A DNA stretch of 40,755 nucleotides, from contig JARGFV010000010.1 in the NCBI GenBank assembly GCA_029210545.1, positions 1-40,755 on the forward strand, written 5' to 3'. The first letter of the stretch is position 1. Each line of letters starts with the position of its first letter. A program made the translations under genes and the position numbers. This document shows, in pieces, positions 1-40,755 of this stretch. The notes under the pieces are model-generated. The model worked only from the letters and a program-made list of their open reading frames with translations. It ran no database searches and was not told the origin of the DNA. Source of the DNA: a bacterium. Lineage in GTDB: Bacteria > BMS3Abin14.

Positions 1-161
1 AAAAGCGTGGTTTTCCCTTCCCTCACGGATCGCTGACATATTTACCGGTCATCGATCCGGGCGCCCTTCCCAGGCGCAGCTTGTCATTGACTTACGGTTC
101 GAGTCATTGATTTGGGCGCCCCGCGCGGGGCGCATTGATGGACTTTTTGCGAGTCCATCAA
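1..161 (+). repeat. Dispersed multi-hairpin repeat, copy A (left edge cut by window)
   Basis: The window opens inside the second hairpin of the dispersed repeat (right arm TTTTCCC at 11-17) and runs to the terminal hairpin TTGATGGACT / AGTCCATCAA ending at 161. Like copy B, it carries an extra module not found in copies D and E: an additional TGAC/GTCA hairpin around 33-57 and an extra GGGCGCC-type block. It abuts a transposase fragment whose reading frame stops being homologous exactly where the repeat begins, so the repeat probably interrupted that gene. Confidence 0.85.
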
Positions 162-162
162 C

Positions 163-300
163 CTTGCGCGAGGAAACGATCCCCACGCAGTAGGCGTAAA
201 GCAGCAAGCTCACCATCATCTGGGGGTCGTAGGGTGGCTGCCCGCCGGCCGAACCGTCATAGGATGCGTAAATCCGTTCAAGACATATAATTCTGAGGGC
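163..300 (-). pseudogene. IS1182-family transposase fragment (DUF772 region)
   Basis: Read on the minus strand this stretch encodes about 45 residues including RIYASYDGS, GQPPYDPQMM, LLLYAYC and SSRK. That is the conserved early part of IS1182-type transposases, where a small-residue/GRPPY-HP motif precedes a helix and an SSRKIE motif. The start of the protein and everything after SSRK are missing. The 3' side runs directly into dispersed repeat copy A, and the 5' side runs into an inverted repeat at 283-322. Normal family members are roughly 450-500 residues, so this is a shard with no catalytic residues. Confidence 0.7.
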
Positions 301-4402: not shown

Positions 4403-4593
4403 TGATGACTTCGCAAAAAGTCATCAACGCGCCCCGCGCGGGGCGCCCAAATCAATGACCCGCCGCGCCTGGGAGCGGCGCCCGGATCGATGACCGCCAA
4501 ATATGTCAGCGATCCGTGAGGAAAGGAAAAACCCCGCTTTTTCCTTTCCGTGGAGCGAAAAGTCCCGGATTGGACTTTTTGCGACCCTGTCAA
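4403..4593 (-). repeat. Dispersed multi-hairpin repeat, copy B (long form)
   Basis: This is the longest complete copy, inverted relative to D and E, between the divergent tal-pgi and arsS genes. Its terminal hairpin is TGATGACTT / AAGTCATCA. Its second hairpin reads GGAAAGGAAAAA (4520-4531) / TTTTTCCTTTCC (4538-4549), which keeps pairing while differing from the other copies by a G-C to A-T exchange. It has the extra TGAC/GTCA and GGGCGCC modules shared with copy A. It begins about 57 bp upstream of the predicted tal-pgi -35 box. Confidence 0.85.
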
Positions 4594-8140: not shown

Positions 8141-8166
8141 TTGATGACTTTTTGCGAAGTCATCAA
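8141..8166. repeat. Solo terminal hairpin of the dispersed repeat
   Basis: TTGATGACTT / AAGTCATCAA around TTTGCG is the same as the terminal hairpin of copies B and E, here without the rest of the element. It lies 9 bp after the flavoprotein stop and may serve as its 3' end structure. Confidence 0.7.
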
Positions 8167-9834: not shown

Positions 9835-10035
9835 ATCTCATATCCCACATCTCAAAGTGGTGAAGATTCCAATCAACAACGCAGTTCCTTGAGATCTGAG
9901 ATTTGAGATCCGAGATGGTGATTCCTGGATTCCATCCCTCCTTCCTCCTCCCTCCTTCCTCCTCCCTCCTCCCTCCTCCCTCCTCCCTGCTCTTTCCCCT
10001 TTCCCCTTTCCCCTTTCCACTGTTATTCTCCCTCC
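9835..10035 (+). repeat. Intergenic short-word repeats, including a polypyrimidine tract
   Basis: This holds variants of GAGATTTGAGATCCGAGAT (about 9893-9915) and then tandem TCCTCCC (about 9945-9990) and CTTTCCC (about 9993-10018) units up to the next gene. The reverse complement of the same words recurs at 33931-33986. No gene is seen. Confidence 0.8.
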
Positions 10036-17405: not shown

Positions 17406-17616
17406 CTAGCAGCGTGTCGGAAAACCTCTTGACACGCTGCTATAGGTTTTTCGGAAAGCCCTTTTTTGGGTCTTTTCTTGAAAACAAGAGCATTAAACCG
17501 GTAAATAACTCCGGTGAACTACCAAATGTGCCATATATTTGTTCTTTTCGGTCTAAATGCTACTTCCGAAAAACTATATTTAGGAGCCTGCATGGGGTTC
17601 TCCGACAGGCTCCTAG
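17406..17616 (+). mobile_element. 211-bp MITE, copy 1 (CTAG-bounded)
   Basis: The element is bounded by CTAG on both sides. Its imperfect terminal inverted repeats read CAGCGTGTCGGAAAACC inward from the left and GAGCCTGTCGGAGAACC inward from the right. The left end folds as AGCAGCGTGTC / GACACGCTGCT and the right end as AGGAGCCTG / CAGGCTCCT. A nearly identical copy of equal length lies at 30733-30943. It has no transposase. It ends one base before the ribosome site of the M48 protease gene, so it separates that gene from any older promoter. Confidence 0.85.
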
Positions 17617-24155: not shown

Positions 24156-24190
24156 ATAGGGGGGTCAGCTAAAAGCTACCAGCTACCACT

Positions 24191-24319
24191 GCGCCCGGGG
24201 AGGGTGCCCGGATCAATGATGAACAGGTTGGATCATTGATCCGTGAGGAGAGGGAAAACCACGCTTTTCCCTCTCCGTGGAGCGGGAAGTCCCGGCTGGA
24301 CTTTCCGCGACCCTGTCAA
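24191..24319 (-). repeat. Dispersed multi-hairpin repeat, copy C (divergent, partial)
   Basis: This copy is inverted and diverged. It keeps the second hairpin as GGAGAGGGAAAA (24247-24258) / TTTTCCCTCTCC (24265-24276), an A-T to G-C exchange made on both arms relative to other copies. It also keeps the TCGC...GACAGGG-type end (GCGACCCTGTCAA at 24307-24319) and a hairpin GGATCAATGAT / ATCATTGATCC. The terminal TTGATGGACT hairpin is missing. It lies 10 bp upstream of the truncated MarC gene. Confidence 0.75.
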
Positions 24320-24329
24320 TAGAGGTGAC

Positions 24330-24629
24330 ATGAAAAGTTTTCTTAAGGCTTTAGTGGCCTGTTCCGTGGTGGTAGATCCCGTGGGCACCTCCCTGGTGTT
24401 CAATGCCCCCACTGGCGGAAATGATGAGCCTTACAGCCGGAAGATGGCCTCCCGTGATGTCGTCCTGTCCACCGGCTTGGTGTTGTTTTTCGGTTTTCTT
24501 TTTTCAAAGGCTCTTGTCCGCCTCGTCGGCCAGACGATCAACAACGTTTTCAAGAGACCCCTGGTTGTTCTTCTCGCTTCTCTCGCCATCCGGTTCGTGG
24601 CCCACGGTATCAAGGGACCGTGGGGCTAG
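24330..24629 (+). pseudogene. Internally deleted MarC-family membrane protein (99 aa)
   Basis: The ORF reads like MarC at both ends but lacks the middle. The N-terminus (FLKALVACSVVVDPVGTSLVF; YSRKMASRDVVLSTGLVLFFG) matches the first two helices and linker of MarC proteins. The C-terminus (VVLLASLAIRFVAHGIKGPWG) matches their last helix. Full MarC proteins have about 200-215 residues and six helices, so roughly half is missing, with the junction near NNVFKRP. The frame is intact and AGAGGTGAC precedes the ATG, so a small protein could still be made; loss of the original function is the likeliest reading. rsgA follows 19 bp later. Confidence 0.65.
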
Positions 24630-24648
24630 GAACCTGCCGGAGAACCCC

Positions 24649-25713
24649 ATGCTGATGGAAAATCTGGGATACAATGGCACTTTGGCCCGGGCACTGAAAG
24701 AACTGGGCCTGGACGATGTCGTTCCCGGCCGCATCGTGTGGCAAAGCGCCTACGACTACCGTGTTCAGTGCGAGGAGGGGGAGGTCGCGGCCCAGGTCAC
24801 AGGCAGGATCCGATCGTCAGGACTTCCCGGAGTAGGTGACTGGGTGGCCGTGCGGGCCGACCCGGACTTTGAGAAGGGGACCATCGCCGCGATCCTTCCA
24901 AGGAAAAGCGCTTTTTCCAGAAGCGCTATCGGAAGGATGGTTTCAGAGCAGGTGATCGCCGCCAATATCGACGAAGTATTCATTGTCACCGATCTGGACA
25001 CCGATTTCAACCTGCGCCGCATCGAGCGGTACATCACTCTGGTCTACAACAGCGGTGCCATCCCGGTCGTTGTGCTCAACAAGACCGACCTGGCGTTGGA
25101 CGTCCAGTCGGTCCTTGATGAAACGGAGGCTGTTTCTCCCGGGATCCCCGTCTACGCTGTGAGCGCCGAAGAGGGGCAGGGGATCGATCAGCTGGAAAAT
25201 CGGCTGGGACACGGGAAGACGGTTGCATTTCTGGGATCGTCCGGCGTGGGCAAGTCGACCCTGATCAACTGCCTGCTGGGCGAAGAGCGCATGGAGGTTG
25301 GAGCAGTCCGGGAGGGGGACGGCAAGGGACGCCACACGACGACTCACAGAGAGCTCATCCTTTTACCGGGAGGGGGCGCCGTCATCGATACTCCCGGGAT
25401 GCGGGAGATCGGGGTCTGGGGCGATGAGCAGGGACTGGCCGGAGCCTTTCCGGAGGTCGGCGACCTGGCTTCAGCGTGCCGGTTCCGGGACTGTCGTCAC
25501 GAGATCGAAAAGGGGTGCGCGGTCATTGCGGCTGCCGATTCCGGTGCGATCGACTCTGACAGGCTCGAAAGCTACAGAAAGCTCAGGGCCGAGTTCGAAA
25601 ACCTCGAGGTCAGGAAGGGCCGGCACGCCCGCATGGAGGAAAGGCGTGAGGGTAAAAGGTTTGCGAAGATGGTCAGAGAAGTGGAGAGGGATAATCCGAA
25701 GAGACGAAAATAA
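24649..25713 (+). CDS. rsgA: RsgA, small ribosomal subunit-dependent GTPase
   Basis: The 354-residue circularly permuted GTPase has an N-terminal OB fold (about 1-110; PGVGDWVAVR). G motifs appear in permuted order: NKTD (G4), SAEEGQGI (G5), GSSGVGKST (G1), GRHTTTHREL (G2) and DTPGMREIG (G3). The C-terminal zinc domain has CRFRDCRHEIEKGC. RsgA matures the 30S subunit. The start is taken at 24649 (GGAGAACCCC ATG); the ATG at 24655 is an alternative. The frame also extends upstream across the MarC fragment in a different frame and was rejected. The lysine/arginine-rich C-terminus is normal for the family. Confidence 0.95.
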   Translation: MLMENLGYNGTLARALKELGLDDVVPGRIVWQSAYDYRVQCEEGEVAAQVTGRIRSSGLPGVGDWVAVRADPDFEKGTIAAILPRKSAFSRSAIGRMVSEQVIAANIDEVFIVTDLDTDFNLRRIERYITLVYNSGAIPVVVLNKTDLALDVQSVLDETEAVSPGIPVYAVSAEEGQGIDQLENRLGHGKTVAFLGSSGVGKSTLINCLLGEERMEVGAVREGDGKGRHTTTHRELILLPGGGAVIDTPGMREIGVWGDEQGLAGAFPEVGDLASACRFRDCRHEIEKGCAVIAAADSGAIDSDRLESYRKLRAEFENLEVRKGRHARMEERREGKRFAKMVREVERDNPKRRK

Positions 25714-28255: not shown

Positions 28256-28320
28256 TCGGTATTCAGGGCTGTCGGAAGAACCAGTTACCTGATTTAAGTG
28301 TCCTGAGTCGGTCCAATTTT

Positions 28321-28477
28321 GACAGGGTCGCAAAAAGTCCAATCCGGGATTTTTCGCTCCACGGAAAGGGAAAAGCGTCGTTTTCCCTTTCCTTACAAAT
28401 CAATGACTTACGGAGTGAGTCATTGATTTGGGCGCCCCGCGCGGGGCACGTTGATGGACTTTTTGCGAGTCCATCAA
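28321..28477 (+). repeat. Dispersed multi-hairpin repeat, copy D (full short form)
   Basis: Five consecutive hairpins are seen: H1 GCAAAAAGTCC with an imperfect GGGATTTTTCGC partner (28330-28355); H2 GGAAAGGGAAAA / TTTTCCCTTTCC (28363-28392); H3 AATCAATGACT / AGTCATTGATT (28398-28428); H4, a GCGCCCCGCGCGGGGC palindrome (about 28432-28449); H5 TTGATGGACT / AGTCCATCAA (28451-28477). The outer ends carry inverted CGCAAAAAGTCC. CAATTTTGACA occurs on both sides (28314-28324 and 28475-28485), a possible target duplication that partly overlaps the element ends. The rest of this 446-bp gap contains only TACTG-type word repeats. Confidence 0.88.
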
Positions 28478-28640
28478 TTTTGACACCAGTCAAAAAGCGA
28501 CAGTTTTAGGGGTGTTCAGGGCAAGGTTATCCTATGATTCGCAGGGACACTTGTTATATTGCAGCCATGAAAAGCGATTTGAGGACTACTACTGAATACT
28601 GGTTACTGATTACTCAGTACTGATTCCAAGGAGGTTCAAA

Positions 28641-30732: not shown

Positions 30733-30943
30733 CTAGCAGCGTGTCGGAAAACCTCTTGACACGCTGCTGTAAGTTTTTCGGAAAGCCCTTTTTTGGGTCT
30801 TTTCTTGAAAACAAGAGCATTAAACCGGTGAATAACTCCAGTGAATTACCAAATGTGCCATATATTTGTTCTTTTCGGTCTAAATGCTACTTCCGAAAAA
30901 CTATATCTAGGAGCCTGCATGGGGTTCTCCGACAGACTCCTAG
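30733..30943 (+). mobile_element. 211-bp MITE, copy 2 (CTAG-bounded)
   Basis: This element has the same length and nearly the same sequence as 17406-17616, with CTAG at both ends and terminal hairpins AGCAGCGTGTC / GACACGCTGCT and AGGAGCCTG / CAGACTCCT. The few differences (for example GGCTCC to GACTCC near the right end) argue that the copies are not a very recent assembly duplicate. It has no ORF of its own and faces fxsA in the same orientation that copy 1 faces the M48 gene. Confidence 0.85.
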
Positions 30944-33649: not shown

Positions 33650-33690
33650 GCTGACCTCCTTGAATTTGTATTGGGTATTCAATATATGAT

Positions 33691-33843
33691 AGGGTCGCAA
33701 AAAGTCCAATCCGGGACTTTTCGCTCCACGGAAAGGGAAAAGCGTCGTTTTCCCTTTCCTTACAAATCAATGACTTACAGTGCCGGTCATTGATTTGGGC
33801 GCCCCGCGCGGGGCGCGTTGATGACTTTTTGCGAGGTCATCAA
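33691..33843 (+). repeat. Dispersed multi-hairpin repeat, copy E (full short form)
   Basis: This has the same five-hairpin order as copy D with perfect H2 (GGAAAGGGAAAA / TTTTCCCTTTCC) and H4 (GCGCCCCGCGCGGGGCGC). H3 is altered in the loop. H5 reads TTGATGACTTTTTGCGAGGTCATCAA. TCAATATAT occurs on both flanks (33679-33687 and 33840-33848), a possible 9-bp target duplication. It sits between the FeS operon start and the end of the pabB-pabC gene. Confidence 0.88.
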
Positions 33844-33848
33844 TATAT

Positions 33849-34010
33849 TATCATAACCTTATATTGTCAACCGATCATCAGAAGGGCATGCAGGTGCCAC
33901 ATTCCCCCAAGCTTTACCGGTTAATTATAGCAAAGAGGCAGGGAGGAGGGAGGAGGGAAAGGGGAAAGGGGAAAGGGGAAAGGGGAACTCTGAACCCTGG
34001 AACCTGGACT
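33849..34010. repeat. Intergenic word repeats downstream of pabB-pabC
   Basis: GGGAGGA and GGGGAAA tandem units (about 33937-33987), the reverse complement of those at 9945-10020, are followed by CCCTGGAACCTGGAC-type words that continue into the last codons of the pabB-pabC gene. No gene is seen. Confidence 0.75.
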
Positions 34011-40680: not shown

Positions 40681-40755
40681 GATAGAGTCGCAAAAAGTCC
40701 AATCCGGGACTTTTCGCTCCACGGAAAGGGAAAAGCGTGGTTTTCCCTTTCCTTA
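40681..40755 (+). repeat. Dispersed multi-hairpin repeat, copy F (right edge cut by window)
   Basis: The first 75 bp of the element (H1 and H2; GGAAAGGGAAAA-GCGTGG-TTTTCCCTTTCC) are present and then the window ends. The preceding stretch (40560-40680) holds GGGGAG and CTTTCCTC word repeats and no gene. Confidence 0.85.

Follow-up and report, generated by a model that had tools for sequence, protein, structure and literature searches.

The stretch of DNA analysed here, which we call the window, is 40,755 nucleotides long and corresponds to one entire contig (C10) in the 241-contig, 97.5% complete assembly of genome G000 (2.72 Mb). It contains six copies (A to F) of a dispersed element built from consecutive hairpins, together with a solo end, as an earlier note had described with positions that were exact or off by one to three bases (Table 1). 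The extra hairpin module noticed in copies A and B is real, and the outer ends said to be inverted are terminal inverted repeats in copy D. A remnant of another IS1182-family transposase (157-288, minus strand) directly adjoins copy A. The window also carries a second dispersed repeat, with 211-nt copies at 17406-17616 and 30733-30943 that are 97% identical, shorter pieces containing CTAGGAGCCTG... at 350-417 and 24626-24652, and, at 364-417, an inverted repeat whose 25-bp arms match perfectly across a 4-nt gap. Long purine/pyrimidine tracts (GGAAAGGGGAAAGGGG...) lie in opposite orientation at 9963-10021 and 33938-33987.

Table 1. Features of the hairpin element in the window (limits of copies A to F leave out the target duplication; covariation is given as pairs of alignment columns)
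Feature	Positions	Strand	Remarks
Copy A	1-159	+	Cut by contig start; extra H3/H4-type module
Copy B	4404-4591	-	188 bp; extra H3/H4-type module; flanks AAGAAT / AAGTAT
Solo H5 hairpin	8143-8164	.	
Copy C	24190-24317 (start approximate)	-	Without H5
Left target-site duplication, copy D	28315-28320	.	AATTTT
Copy D, full-length putative hairpin-chain MITE	28321-28475	+	155 bp; covariance model 164.8 bits
Left terminal inverted repeat, copy D	28321-28340	+	GACAGGGTCGCAAAAAGTCC
Hairpin H1	28330-28357	+	Holds inner part of left end; covariation 11-37 in A2
Hairpin H2	28363-28392	+	12 bp stem plus tip pair; covariation 51-68, 58-62
Hairpin H3	28397-28429	+	15 bp; covariation 80-112, 81-111
Hairpin H4	28432-28449	+	7 bp, GC-rich; covariation 117-130
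Hairpin H5	28453-28475	+	The right end itself
Right terminal inverted repeat, copy D	28457-28475	-	Inverted: GATGGACTCGCAAAAAGTC
Right target-site duplication, copy D	28476-28481	.	AATTTT
Copy E, full length	33688-33841	+	
7-bp duplication, copy E	33681-33687 and 33842-33848		AATATAT
Copy F	40681-40755	+	Cut by contig end

The host genome is densely populated by this element. Approximately 40 near-full copies of D were found among the scored matches in G000 (E as low as 1e-77), and the end motif TCGCAAAAAGTC, allowing at most one mismatch, occurs 487 times compared with 19 for a reversed-pattern control. Counting partial copies and solo ends, this amounts to about 235 element equivalents. Individual copies were sampled from the stretches surrounding matches. 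Because many contigs begin or end inside copies, the element is a main cause of assembly fragmentation in this genome; copies A and F each hold one end of the window's contig, and contigs C1, C2, C4, C5, C7, C8, C9, C13, C16 and others likewise start or end within copies. Variants on the basic form are also present. At one locus (L061, 400-970) three 82-bp H2+H1 modules in tandem enlarge the element; the stem particular to them (GGGAACCGG/CGGTTCCC) departs from the usual H2 on each arm. At two others (L059, 403-730; L141, 166-478) tandem copies stand head-to-tail with few bases between them. A 361-aa ORF at L060 includes, in frame, an element-type end (471-510) that is translated as LMDSQKVSS and looks as though the protein had taken it up.

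The element ends in GAYRGNGTCGCAAAAAGTC, and most elements measure 153-155 bp, the longer ones holding extra hairpin modules. We delimited 139 elements by their ends and compared the flanks: the 6 bp on the two sides are identical in 47 elements, whereas shuffling left against right flanks gives 3.1 (maximum 10), and 47 is a lower bound as the set includes some mis-paired ends. Identical 7-bp flanks occur in 6 of the 139 against 0.14 in shuffles. The duplicated target is AANNTT (consensus A96 A83 N N T89 T100), and target flanks show no palindrome past the duplication (163 compared with 178 shuffled). A comparison of one orthologous site (L035) between two species of one genus found the element in G004 and missing in G009, where the exact empty site is not preserved.

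Far from being confined to a single genome as a relic, the element spans a whole family of bacteria. Of 61 genomes searched with blastn, the host's family contributes 11 besides the host itself, 10 of which carry the element, whereas the 49 genomes from other families gave no match; the class of the host is represented by the same 12 genomes as the family. A covariance model (R1, built from 94 sequences) searched against 241 genomes recovered the family again and, outside it, only G103 (E=1e-8) and G232 (E=4e-10). Architecture-matched relatives of the element exist in two other lineages. Plasmid and phage collections yielded no match to the element. The end pattern turned up in 27 IMG/VR contigs, but the covariance model supported none of them, so these are probably chance occurrences.

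The interior of the element is an unusually conserved, ordered chain of five hairpins. The earlier note proposed a fold maintained by compensatory changes, and 94 sequences drawn from 11 genomes bear this out: over 49 pairs in five helices, 92.2% of cells are paired, compared with 38-52% when the helix pairs are slid by one to three columns. Cells with both sides changed number 198 against 73 in shuffles, and the covariation score is 0.151 against 0.093. The H2 variants quoted for copies B, C and D/E/F are exact, with both arms changed, and the H5 alternation between GGACT/AGTCC and GACTT/AAGTC is seen again in other genomes. In a covariation test run with a home-made tree null on the 94 sequences, the six top-covarying column pairs are all helix pairs. 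Over all column pairs, 58-62 and 51-68 alone fall below E=0.05; 81-111, 80-112, 117-130 and 11-37 rank next, and would pass only if the test were confined to the 49 proposed pairs (our own scaling). Fold z-scores are -7.5 and -9.1. Energy models favour another shape, a point against the chain of five: in minimum-energy folds of single copies the two ends pair with each other in place of H1 and H5, giving a cloverleaf. Where the left end has changed from C to T, its partner in H1 has followed (16/16 UA), and against the other end the same change gives 11 T.G and 5 TA; the partner that changes along with it is thus in H1 and not at the opposite end.

Mismatches in the stems differ between the strands. 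A one-sided stem mismatch that is A.C or G.T on the plus strand is G.T or A.C, respectively, on the other. On inner branches, one-sided mismatches on the plus strand comprise 13 A.C and no G.T (p=0.0002), an asymmetry that depends on the repeat tree and on seven loop-near pairs dropped after looking; with the loop-near pairs kept, the counts are 20 A.C and 6 G.T (p=0.009). Mismatches in genome consensus sequences show 8 A.C and no G.T, and those private to one copy show 50 to 36, which is not significant (p=0.16). Mismatches fixed in subfamilies are therefore wobble-tolerant on one strand only, which suggests selection on a single-stranded form, and the pattern is consistent with selection for folding of the minus strand (H5 to H1) in spreading copies while resident copies drift. 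That form may be RNA or DNA.

The paired changes could also have a mutational origin within the same MITE, through quasipalindrome correction, in which replication transfers a change from one arm to the other, or through gene conversion swapping whole hairpins between copies, an account that we consider somewhat unlikely for the paired changes as a whole. It would fit the recurrent toggling with hardly any intermediates (at 58-62, 59 sequences have CG, 34 UA and 1 another pair) and the double complementary changes private to one copy, of which there are 2 against 0.05 expected. Both of these run from A-T to C-G without a wobble intermediate, and one is in a copy with only 4 differences. Additionally, 47 one-sided private changes indicate that resident copies tolerate broken pairs. 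However, mutation of this kind should show no strand preference, yet fixed mismatches stand at 13 to 0, and it leaves unexplained why the five-hairpin order recurs with unrelated stems in G103 and G241 (below). Selection and hairpin-templated correction may both act, and some of the paired changes may have arisen by templated mutation rather than by selection.

We judge it improbable that the element is a structured RNA that serves the host, for instance as a terminator, regulatory leader or mRNA stabiliser, and that transposition disperses while selection retains it where it has landed. The strong fold, covariation and strand asymmetry would suit such an RNA, as would the placement of copies between ORFs in 67 of 70 cases, at a median of 78-108 bp from the flanking ORFs (position and orientation being judged from ORFs, without a gene finder); the bcr elements of Bacillus cereus, likened to MITEs, are often within transcripts (PMC3446304). 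However, orientation is unbiased relative to flanking genes (++ 15, -- 20, -+ 14, +- 12), and a host function in cis fits the asymmetry badly because copies are not oriented to genes. Copy D has no promoter or terminator pattern, and the element is missing from the orthologous site in the second species of the genus. Rfam gave no match in the window and nothing near the gathering score with lax filters. A REP/BIME-type element moved by a Y1 (HUH) RAYT transposase, with H5 as the REP, would accord with H5 occurring alone in the window and with a short high-copy palindrome, but is extremely improbable given 6-bp target duplications and terminal inverted repeats, which are DDE and not HUH features, and ends held in common with a DDE IS.

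Several genomes contain candidate partners for the element. In G000, ends like those of the MITE, with AANNTT-type flanks, enclose a 520-aa ORF (L079) whose best matches are IS1182-family models. Its ends and those of homologous ISs in G009 (L084) and G007 (L087) read GAYGG..TCGCAAAAAGT and adjoin AATATT, AATAAT and AAGGTT; the latter two ends are not stray MITE copies nearby because each is followed by IS-specific sequence missing from the MITE. IS copies with MITE-like ends occur in four genomes. The best model for the partner transposase is NF033551 (E=1.6e-46 over 450 positions), at 159 bits against a 270-bit cut-off. A complete IS in G241 (L220, 667-2603, 1937 bp) encodes a 607-aa transposase with DDE_Tnp_1 and DDE_Tnp_1_6 domains scoring above their cut-offs, and its end GATGGCTTCGTAAGAAGTC matches the right end of the G241 MITE at 19 of 19 bases. 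The IS end in G007 matches the best-matching MITE end type at 18 of 19, and in G000 and G009 the IS end and the common MITE end disagree at 4-5 of the 19 positions. The complete genome G146 carries three identical copies of a relative (40% identity), intact at both ends, with ends GACGGGGCGGCAAAAAG and duplications AGCTTT, TAGATTT and AATTTAT (6-7 bp). IS and MITE thus concur in the type of end, the length of the duplication and the AT-rich target. However, no matching duplications flank the L079 and L220 ISs themselves.

Only one such IS was found in the assembly of the host, G000, and its transposase is missing about 77 residues, among them the region of the catalytic E; the host's own IS copy is therefore probably dead. 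Most of the MITE-rich relatives have no IS of this type at the protein level. Thus, the MITE is commonest in genomes that show no working partner. Among other candidates considered, an IS1634-family transposase fragment (NF033559) adjoining a copy in G000 (L078, 1291-2121, minus strand) was rejected as a partner as no common ends were seen. End motifs a few kilobases apart were also considered as bounds of an autonomous element and rejected: at L060 they enclose ordinary host genes, and at L058 no transposase was seen when the sequence was read by eye (L063, L070 and L077 were scanned for ends only).

The element is short, present in many copies, bounded by terminal inverted repeats and duplications of fixed length, free of any internal transposase gene, and has ends in common with an autonomous element, more weakly in G000 and G009. 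It is thus very probably a MITE, a non-autonomous DNA transposon, linked to a clade of the IS1182 family, and it represents a new MITE family. Of the two options raised in the earlier note, that of a mobile hairpin DNA is mostly right, supported by the 6-bp target duplications and by ends common to an IS. The mobiliser is likely to be a clade of IS1182-family DDE transposases; the ends, their occurrence in ISs, the duplications and the target preference are all read from sequence, and from them we infer mobilisation in trans.

We suggest that the approximately 19-bp MITE ends would be recognised by the transposase of one IS1182-family clade, which would insert the MITE in trans at AANNTT with a stagger of 6 bp, sometimes 7. 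Tentatively, we further propose that one strand (H5 to H1) must fold while single-stranded, as ssDNA or transcript, and that this folding serves propagation or tolerance of the element, which would account for an interior made up of a hairpin chain. The fold would be selected in copies that spread and not in every resident copy. A bolder possibility, which we consider unlikely, is that this strand-specific folded form (ssDNA or the element's own RNA) is a working intermediate in transposition by the IS1182 clade, with the ordered five-hairpin scaffold inherited in place of sequence.

Inheritance of the scaffold would explain why the same architecture occurs with unrelated stems in distant lineages. 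The elements of G103 and G241 resemble the window element in ends, length and duplication: they have ends GATGACCTCGTAAAAAGTC and GATGGCTTCGTAAGAAGTC and are 153 bp long, with at least 29 among the matches listed in G241, duplications in 10 of 12, and a fold z-score of -10.2 for the G241 family. By inspection, they contain five hairpins in the order of the window element, and their H2 (GGCGGGGGAGGAG/CTCCTCCCCCGCC), H3 (CCATTTGAA/TTCAAATGG) and H4 have no evident sequence in common with the window stems. In G232 the element takes a third form, with CTCTGAAAAAGTC at its ends, and remnants resembling IS1182 lie close to similar ends. Common descent with turnover of stems probably relates these elements to that of the window, convergence of the designs being the less likely alternative.

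It is common to regard bacterial MITEs as decayed remains, and here an interior hairpin chain has been kept through deep divergence. The element combines paired changes and strand bias with a partner family known elsewhere for stem-loop targets. Thus, it offers a natural system for asking whether folded single strands join DDE transposition, and whether palindromes maintain themselves by templated mutation.

Bacterial MITEs such as ERIC/RU, RUP, BOX and Correia are short, intergenic and hairpin-forming with inverted ends, but their ends and hosts differ from those of the window element. To our knowledge, none of this type has been tied to IS1182, and we know of none with five hairpins conserved in order across lineages despite non-identical stems. 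REP/BIME elements with RAYT are likewise palindromic, modular and of high copy number; a target duplication would be unexpected there, and its presence places the window element with DDE-type systems and outside the HUH/RAYT group. RU-1 to RU-3 are published examples of such short bacterial repeats (PMC2759123). The repeats of Bacillus cereus, including bcr1, resemble our element in length (100-400 bp) and high copy number, with bcr1-3 described as MITE-like and bcr10/bcr18 as having conserved secondary structure (PMC6542083, PMC3446304), although their hosts are unrelated. A further comparison is with the IS1182 family (for example, IS1272), to which the partner transposases probably belong by profile (NF033551 best, below cut-off) and whose members have terminal inverted repeats. 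IS1272 has been reported to replace stem-loop targets without target duplication (PMC5678879). In contrast, the window element and its putative partner clade make a 6-7 bp duplication at AANNTT, in flanks that are not palindromic (the 163 compared with 178 shuffled given above), which sets them apart from stem-loop replacement of the IS1272 kind.
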